Assembly: GCA_027038965.1 (NCBI GenBank)
Contig: JALWFG010000016.1
Span: forward strand, 62,001-126,000
Length of the DNA stretch: 64,000 nt
Origin: Candidatus Desulfofervidaceae bacterium
GTDB taxonomy: Bacteria > Desulfobacterota > Desulfofervidia > Desulfofervidales > Desulfofervidaceae
Direction of reading: 5' to 3'
This document shows positions 6,947 to 9,663 of the stretch, piece by piece; position 1 is the first letter of the stretch, and each line of letters starts with the position of its first letter. The position numbers and the translations under genes were made by a program. The notes under the pieces are model-generated. The model had not been told where the DNA came from, searched no databases, and saw nothing but the letters and a program-made list of their open reading frames with translations.

Positions 6947-8069
6947 TTATTTCACCTCCACTATCCATATTTTTTTGTCAACATCACCGTTTGTTAAAAA
7001 AGTAGTGGTACCAGTGACTCCTGGAAAATTTTGGACGTATTGGGGCAACCCCTTTATATCCAAATGGGCCACACTCTCCAGATAGCCAATGATAGTCCCA
7101 ATTTCATAGGCTTGAGCGGCAAGATAATTAGGCAGTTCTTTATAGGCGCTTTGATAGCGTTTGACAAATGCCCTTACCCAAGGCTTCTGGGCCTTGGGAT
7201 TAAAGGGGCTCGGAAAGTAAATGGCACGACAGTATTGCTTGATATTGGAGAGGAATTTGGGATTATTCCAAAGAGCAGTTCCTAAAAAGATTAAGTTTCT
7301 GGCATTATAATATGCAAATTGGGAAATAATAAACGTGGCCTCAAGGGAGGTATCAGCAATAAAAATGGCATCAAAGGGAAAGGTGGGAGGATGAGTTATA
7401 AGAATTTCGGGCGAAGATTCGGCAATTCGATATCCAATAATCTTTTTTATAATATCTCCAAAATCAGTTTTTTGAGGAGGATAACCAAACATCTTTCTTA
7501 TTTCTCCACCATTTTGGACCACAGCACTTGCGAATAGATGGGCATATCTTTGTCCATATTTATTTTGGGGATATAAGATTATAAACGAATGAAGTCCCAA
7601 ATCCTGTAAGGCAAAGGAGGCAAGATTCATTAACTGAATCTGGTCAGTCACAAAATCCCGATACACAACTTGGCCTAATTCCAAATTTCTCTCATTCGTC
7701 ATAACTATCAAAGGCATCTTTATCTTTTGGGCCATATGGACAACACCTTTAGCGGTCTTTTGGCCTAAAAGGGCTACTCCGAGGCTACATCCATCCTTTT
7801 GCATCTTTTTTAGTTGCATTGCGGCGTAGTTTGGATCTGAGGCTGTATTATACACTCGCAGTTTAAAGGCAGGACTTGAAGAGAGGACCTCTAATGCCAA
7901 AGATAAACCCTTCAATACTGCTATTCCCAACCTCCCATCCTCACCATCCAATGGAATGAGACACCCGATTTTATAACGAGGGCCAAACCAAGGTAGAAAG
8001 GCCCATGCAGGCCGCACCAAAACGATTATAAAAAAAAAAGAAAGTAAAAGAAAAAAGGACCTTTTTCAT
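6947..8069 (-). CDS. Periplasmic LIVBP-like ligand-binding protein; signal peptide out of frame by one base
   Basis: The open body (6947-8020, about 357 codons) resembles type-I periplasmic binding proteins of the ABC/LpoA-activator fold: KIGCLIPLDGEDGRLG at the start, then NTASDP, GLHSFIILYPQNKYG and GVTGTTTF near the end. No good start exists in that frame. The ATG at 8069, 7 bp past the grpE stop, begins a textbook signal peptide (MKKVLFSF, then a Phe/Ile/Val core ending in AWA), but it joins the body only if the T10 tract at 8039-8030 is read as T9. The gene is therefore either broken by one base, expressed by slippage or phase variation, or affected by a sequencing error. It is the third gene of the hrcA-grpE operon. 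The ligand is unknown. Confidence 0.72.
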
Positions 8070-8075
8070 GAATAC

Positions 8076-8621
8076 TTATTCTTTAGGTTTACCTACCACT
8101 ACTAAAGAAGGGCGAAGAAGCCTGTCATGCAACATGTAACCCTTCTGCAATTCTTTAATCACAATTTCTTCGGTAATATCATCTTTTTCTTCTACTTGAA
8201 CTGCCTCATGAAAATGAGGATTAAATTTCTCTCCCTCAGCCTTTACTGGCTTCACTCCAAATTTTTCTAAACATCCATGCATCATTTTTAGGGTTAATTT
8301 TACTCCCTCTAAAAGGGCATTTATCTCTGTTTTCTCCTCTGCATGGGTTAGGGCCCGTTCTAGGTTGTCAATAACGGGTAACAAGTTTTTGACAAGCTGT
8401 TCATTGGCAAATTTAAAGTAATCAGAACGTTCCTTTTCTACCCTCTTGCGTAAATTGTCAAGTTCGGCCATTGCCCGGAGCCACTTTTCATAGTATTCCT
8501 GGGCTTCTTTTGTTTTCTCCTCTAGCTTTTGCTCTAATTCCTTTATCTTTTTTTCCAATTCAGTTCTTTCTTTACTCCCATTACCTTTGGCGGTTTTCTC
8601 CTTTTCGGGCTTCATAGCCAT
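8076..8621 (-). CDS. grpE: Nucleotide exchange factor GrpE
   Basis: A 181-residue cytoplasmic cochaperone that releases ADP from DnaK. A charged N-terminal tail is followed by a long coiled coil (about residues 20-85, including YYEKWLRAMAELDNLRKRVEKE), then LLPVIDNLERAL and the C-terminal beta domain ending LLRPSLVVVGKP. These are the GrpE family landmarks. AAAGGAGA lies just before the start. It follows hrcA by 19 bp, so it is transcribed from the CIRCE-controlled promoter. dnaK and dnaJ are not in the window. Confidence 0.95.
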   Translation of the reverse strand: MAMKPEKEKTAKGNGSKERTELEKKIKELEQKLEEKTKEAQEYYEKWLRAMAELDNLRKRVEKERSDYFKFANEQLVKNLLPVIDNLERALTHAEEKTEINALLEGVKLTLKMMHGCLEKFGVKPVKAEGEKFNPHFHEAVQVEEKDDITEEIVIKELQKGYMLHDRLLRPSLVVVGKPKE

Positions 8622-8640: not shown

Positions 8641-9663
8641 TTATAAAAGTTCGCTTAAGACTTGGGCCGTATATTCAACCAAGGGAATAACCTTGGCATA
8701 ATTCATGCGTATCGGACCAATCACGGCCACAGAACCCAGAATGGTGTCCCCTTGCATGTAAGGAGAGGCAATGATACCACACTTATCAAGTCCTTCAACC
8801 GAGATTTCTCCCCCAATAAATACCTGTACTCTAGCGTCTTCCATGGTTCTTTCTAACAATCTTGTAATAATACCCTTTTCTTCAAAGGCCTTGACTAGGG
8901 CCTTCATCCTCTCTATATCTGAGAACTCTGGATAATTGAGGATATTGGTAGTGCCTTCTATGTAGACATCCTCCTTTTCTGGCTCCAATAAACGCTTACT
9001 AAATTTTGTAATCCGATGCCAGATGGCATCAAATTCTGCCTTGTCCTTTTTCATATCTTCAATCAATCTTTTCTTTACTTCTCCTAATGTCATTCCGCAA
9101 AAATGAGCATTTAAAAAATTGGCAAATTTGTTAAGGTTTGGCTGAGAAATCTTGCTAATATTAGGAATAAGACGATGATAAACAATGCCTGTAGAGCCTA
9201 CAATTACAGCTAGGACCGTATGTCTATTTAACCAAACAAATTCAATTTGTTTTAATACAATCCGAGAGAACTTGGGTGCGATAACAATCCCTGCCTGCTT
9301 TGAATATTGAGAAAGAAGTTTTGAACTCTCTTGAAGAACCTTTTCTAAATCATATTCACAGCGAAGCTCCTTCAAATTTTCCTTAATTTCCCTTTTATTT
9401 TTAGAGGGCAGGGGCTTCTTTTTTAATAAAGACTCAATGTAGAATTTTAAGCCCAATTCCGTGGGCACCCGACCTGCAGAGGTATGAGGTTGGAAAAAAA
9501 AACCCATTTCCTCTAAGTCTGCCATGATATTGCGAATCGTAGCTGGGCTCATGGGCAATTTATACCGTCGCCAAACCGTCCTGGAACCTACAGGCTCACC
9601 AGTTTGAATATAGGTAGCCACTACCGCTTGCAAAATCTGTCTATCCCTTTTTGAAAGTTCCAT
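8641..9663 (-). CDS. hrcA: Heat-inducible transcription repressor HrcA
   Basis: A protein of about 340 residues that binds CIRCE operators and represses class I heat-shock genes. The N-terminal winged helix reads ELSKRDRQILQAVV with YIQTGEPVGSRT and LPMSPATIRNIMADLEEMGF, and is followed by PHTSAGRVPT, all diagnostic. The C-terminus has IASPYMQGDTILGSVAVIGPIRMNYAK, the usual HrcA ending. I place the start at the ATG at 9663 (MELSKRD). The in-frame ATG at 9708 would put the operator inside the gene and does not match family N-termini. First gene of an hrcA-grpE operon, with a CIRCE site 26 bp upstream, hence autoregulated. Confidence 0.95.
   Translation of the reverse strand: MELSKRDRQILQAVVATYIQTGEPVGSRTVWRRYKLPMSPATIRNIMADLEEMGFFFQPHTSAGRVPTELGLKFYIESLLKKKPLPSKNKREIKENLKELRCEYDLEKVLQESSKLLSQYSKQAGIVIAPKFSRIVLKQIEFVWLNRHTVLAVIVGSTGIVYHRLIPNISKISQPNLNKFANFLNAHFCGMTLGEVKKRLIEDMKKDKAEFDAIWHRITKFSKRLLEPEKEDVYIEGTTNILNYPEFSDIERMKALVKAFEEKGIITRLLERTMEDARVQVFIGGEISVEGLDKCGIIASPYMQGDTILGSVAVIGPIRMNYAKVIPLVEYTAQVLSELL

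Follow-up and report, generated by a model that had tools for sequence, protein, structure and literature searches.

The window analysed here, a 64-kb stretch of genomic DNA from Candidatus Desulfofervidaceae bacterium, carries on its minus strand a gene for a heat-shock repressor (hrcA), followed some 20 bases later by the start of grpE and then by a gene for a substrate-binding protein (Table 1). Gene order and the CIRCE-type repeat ahead of hrcA mark the binding-protein gene as the probable third member of a CIRCE/HrcA-type operon, hrcA-grpE-pbp. The label of heat-shock operon given to the locus in the original prediction is borne out by the presence of HrcA, GrpE and the CIRCE box; co-transcription and heat induction of the binding-protein gene itself we infer from the 6-base spacing and the shared strand. 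The locus was compared among five genomes of the family, namely the source genome, a member of the same genus (G001) and three other relatives (G002, G003 and G004), and in all five the binding-protein gene is the next one after grpE. CIRCE boxes are also present in the stretches from G002, G003 and G004, and none was found upstream of hrcA in the congener G001 (L132) at up to three mismatches.

Table 1. Features of the hrcA-grpE-pbp locus, in window coordinates.
Feature	Coordinates	Strand	Remarks
CIRCE-type inverted repeat, TTAGCACTC-N9-AAGTGCTAA	9689..9715	.	One mismatch; upstream of hrcA; chance expectation 0.03
hrcA, heat-shock repressor, first operon gene	8641..9663	-	TIGR00331, E = 1.6e-100; likely start ATG 9663
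grpE	8076..8621	-	Directly upstream of the binding-protein gene; ends 6 bases before ATG 8069
ATG 8069 and signal-peptide coding stretch to the LPWF motif	7997..8069	-	The tract divides it between two frames
Short frame encoded with T10	7971..8069	-	32 aa and stop
T10 homopolymer inside the signal-peptide codons	8030..8039	-	One base over frame length
Mature Peripla_BP_6 frame	6947..8020	-	Intact to the conserved C-terminus; TTG 8020 is a mechanical start only

The plus strand reads exactly ten A at 8030-8039, which the minus strand reads as T10; its CAT at 8067-8069 is the complement of the minus-strand ATG 8069. The T run sets in 30 bases past the first base of the frame opened by this ATG and takes up its codons 11-14; the frame is shifted there, and the product as assembled, MKKVLFSFTFFFFYNRFGAACMGLSTLVWPSL, stops after 32 amino acids. 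Read with nine T, the same ATG gives MKKVLFSFTFFFFIIVLVRPAWAFLPWFGPRYKIGCLIPLDGEDG..., which continues into the 357-codon frame at 6947-8020, itself free of stops and of any second frameshift. This nine-T leader is charged at its start, has a hydrophobic core and carries an A-W-A (A-x-A) site, with MKKVLFSFTFFFFIIVLVRPAWA before and FLPWFGPRYKIGCLIPL... after the predicted cleavage point. Its best 12-residue Kyte-Doolittle mean is 2.8, against 2.7-3.2 for the leaders of the relatives, 1.7 for the T10 reading and 0.8 for a start at TTG 8020. Upstream, the mature frame holds no ATG and is closed by the TGA within ATGA at 8069, and no intrinsic terminator was called near the tract on the minus strand. 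The export signal is thus cut off from its protein by a tract with one T too many. That ATG 8069 opens a signal peptide ending in AWA and lying out of frame with the mature protein at T10, as originally predicted, is confirmed.

The mature part matches Peripla_BP_6 (Pfam PF13458; E = 4e-22, 79.8 bits against a cut-off of 31.7) and is weakly similar to solved substrate-binding proteins of the branched-chain amino-acid type; NCBIfam gave no named family for the protein. An in-frame export signal is usual for Peripla_BP_6 proteins and lies outside the profile itself; here it is out of frame as assembled and in frame in the four relatives. Assignment to the penicillin-binding protein activators of the LppC/LpoA type, for which a TPR part ahead of the binding fold and an LppC match over cut-off were required, was rejected, as the LppC match reached 18.3 bits (cut-off 28.8) and there is no TPR part. 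The Desulfofervidaceae gene consists of a leader and Peripla_BP_6 without TPR, and TPR plus Peripla_BP_6 occurs in several less closely related members of the phylum.

A hydrophobic leader is in frame in each of the four relatives. In G001, G002 and G003 it starts from an ATG located where grpE ends, and in G004 probably from a GTG about 50 bases past grpE. Identity to the congener is 58% over an end-to-end alignment, 46-47% to G002 and G003, and 48% to G004. The stretch from ATG to LPWF measures 73 nt in the window against 72 nt in G001, and the two leaders align without gaps once the tract is read as nine T. The further claim that a nine-T reading joins leader to mature protein therefore also stands, given the in-frame orthologues and a 5' part one base longer than that of the congener. 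The T run itself varies among the orthologous leaders, being absent from G001, eight T and in frame in G002, and seven T in G004. Because the relatives are in frame and the congener is one base shorter between ATG and LPWF, the in-frame state is ancestral, and T10 is a length change of +1 in the source genome.

Differences from the congener are distributed over the codon positions as 130/82/207, that is, mostly at third positions, while saturation of synonymous sites between the two precludes dN/dS. The third-position bias therefore points to constraint at the protein level over most of the history of the gene and, taken together with the intact downstream frame, suggests that the change to T10 is either recent or tolerated. 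A search for sequence of the same species elsewhere returned a 25% relative at best among genome contigs and no match among viral contigs. The same orthologues bear on whether the gene encodes a cytoplasmic protein that starts at TTG 8020 or GTG 8017 and has no signal peptide. The first of these starts corresponds to the mechanical ORF call. It would, however, retain only the AWA end of the leader, it is preceded by a poly-T stretch and no ribosome-binding site is visible. Homologues beginning at TTG 8020 and devoid of a signal peptide, named at the outset as the finding that would count against a disrupted leader, did not appear, since all four orthologues have leaders in frame; we reject the cytoplasmic start as extremely improbable.

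Long A/T runs are strongly avoided in the source genome, whose 2.19 Mb contain 354 runs of exactly eight bases, 32 of nine and four of ten. Shuffling of synonymous codons within the window ORFs predicted 14 runs of at least eight, against three seen, and about 220 runs of at least nine when scaled to the genome. Such avoidance is found in many bacteria and has been interpreted as the outcome of selection against slippage (PMC1088944); it is what would be expected if such runs are slippery in this genome. An audit by pattern searches covered 66 loci with tracts of at least eight bases (36 fetched for nine or ten bases and 30 for eight; about 50 of the tracts are coding), and across these loci no other gene changes frame at its tract. 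Among the other exact 10-mers, two are genic, in a ribD-like and a histidine-kinase-like gene, neither of which loses its frame there; in-frame A10 tracts lie at contig 11:249930 and contig 21:107720. The remaining 10-mer falls in a gene-free low-complexity stretch. Frame-change alarms at three 8-base tracts (L104, L106 and L107) were dismissed, two being gene junctions and one a stretch with no spanning gene. The off-frame tract is therefore exceptional in the source genome, and a general homopolymer error in the assembly was rejected: the other audited tracts show no frame break, and the assembly shows no general weakness at homopolymers. Two low-complexity sites were encountered along the way. 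At one (L064, contig 13:87451-87517), 67 consecutive T precede a T10 in gene-free DNA, which may be an artefact of assembly or low-complexity sequence of an unusual kind; the other (L093, contig 17:24-90) consists of poly-A/poly-T at a contig end and is probably an assembly artefact.

A sporadic error at this one tract is a different matter. In that case the organism would carry T9 and an undamaged gene, the tenth T having been introduced by sequencing or assembly; this is the main and strong rival to a real length change, quite possible even if we do not regard it as probable. Homopolymers of ten bases are the likeliest sites of one-base error, apart from T10 the gene is intact and conserved, and a sole off-frame tract among about 50 audited coding tracts is what one sporadic error would give; the T67 run on contig 13 and the poly-A/T end of contig 17 are doubtful stretches of the same assembly. 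A high rate of tract error in general is nevertheless argued against by the other genic tracts of nine to ten bases, which are in frame, by the window's first 9.7 kb, where comparison with the congener revealed no further frame break, and by the ORFs that cover about 58 of the 64 kb of the window (42% GC).

We favour, at about even odds (probability roughly 0.5), the reading that T10 is a replication-slippage allele of T9, recent, reversible and perhaps leaky, which leaves the exported protein largely off. It is supported by the in-frame leaders of all four orthologues, the intact mature frame and the in-frame state of the other genic 10-mers. A signal peptide with many Phe, Leu and Ile residues, encoded in a fairly AT-rich genome, would by composition alone come to contain a run of about nine T, to which slipped-strand replication could add one, producing the T10 allele. 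Translation from ATG 8069 would then halt after 32 amino acids in cells of this genotype, and the loss of one T would restore the protein. Slippage of RNA polymerase by one base fewer or two more might meanwhile supply some in-frame mRNA. The gene anatomy, the broken frame, the in-frame relatives, the intact frame downstream and the scarcity of such tracts are direct observations, from which we infer that T10 is real in the DNA of the organism, recent, and either reverting or leaking. Bacterial RNA polymerase slips efficiently at nine A or T (PMC5009743), and in E. coli and Buchnera the slippage that accompanies transcription of A/T runs is mostly the insertion of a single base (PMC5574713). 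Rescue by transcription may therefore take place, and is not favoured; it would perhaps be weak, because slippage mostly inserts one base and U11 stays out of frame.

Two of the closest known systems offer parallels to a slippage allele. In Listeria inlA (PMC2831843), as here, a 5' homopolymer altered by a single base reduces an exported protein to a very short peptide, of 8 amino acids in inlA and 32 in the present gene. There, however, the tract is of A rather than T, and measurements exist of variation among strains and of how often the tract mutates, about 1000 times as frequently as point mutation on average, whereas the present case consists of one assembled sequence. The frameshifted genes of Blochmannia and Buchnera (PMC3017870) are similar in that an otherwise conserved and intact gene carries a short indel in an A or T tract, and in Blochmannia transcriptional slippage at poly(A)/(T) frameshifts may bring some of the mRNA back into frame. 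With their extreme AT-richness and more than 100 long poly(A) tracts in genes, the genomes concerned differ from the source genome, which has few.

Slippage could also be programmed, such that transcriptional slippage or ribosomal frameshifting on U10 yields a fixed share of in-frame protein. Thermus dnaX makes use of RNA polymerase slippage (PMC1088944), and the present tract resembles those of dnaX-type genes in being an A/T run of at least nine, long enough for polymerase slippage (PMC1088944, PMC5009743). Such a design would be expected to be shared, yet neither the tract nor the out-of-frame arrangement is conserved in any of the four relatives, all of which are in frame. The RNA fold at the U10 site is not unusual (z = -0.49), and the change required is one base fewer or two more, against a favoured event of single insertion (PMC5574713). 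We consider programmed slippage very unlikely.

The original prediction had offered polymerase slippage, phase variation by tract length and a one-base sequencing error as explanations, and had suggested that regulation by homopolymer length would make an exported binding protein an on/off trait. A length mutation and a sequencing error are both viable. Regulation by tract length, with T9 as the on and T10 as the off state of a reversible switch kept by selection, found no positive support and is unlikely. The arrangement would act like the off phase of a contingency allele, in that a one-base change in the tract turns the protein on. The tract lies in leader codons at the 5' end, where a change of one unit shifts the frame near the start and leads to an early stop, and prokaryotic genes show an excess of poly(A)/poly(T) tracts of 5-8 bases at their 5' ends (PMC2831843). 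The repeat is not kept in the orthologues, however, as seen from the missing run of G001 and the shorter ones of G002 (in frame) and G004. T runs arise by composition from hydrophobic leader codons in AT-rich DNA, runs of at least nine are avoided rather than enriched in the source genome, and the audited set contains no second gene with an off-frame tract. In Neisseria opa (PMC3960869), repeat length in leader-peptide codons likewise sets the frame of an exported protein, but the repeat is a CTCTT pentamer that is kept across the gene family and has been shown to switch, as opposed to a single unconserved homopolymer. It is accordingly improbable that the T tract has been kept as a length switch or a slippage valve, by which a ligand-binding protein exported from a heat-shock operon of a free-living bacterium would be turned on and off or expressed leakily.

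The locus is most likely an ordinary instance of a known phenomenon, a length variant or an error in the gene of a conserved exported protein. If T10 is real, it provides a clean natural case in which a one-base homopolymer change stops a conserved protein from being exported while the rest of the operon is intact, and does so in a genome where such runs are strongly avoided. Should T10 be an error, a conserved exported protein would be wrongly annotated as cytoplasmic with a TTG start. Either way, conservation of the grpE-binding-protein pair across the family suggests that the protein matters to these bacteria. The operon also contains the only two A/T runs of at least nine in the window, and a run of nine T at 9494-9502 on the minus strand is in frame within hrcA (GFFFQPHTSAGR).
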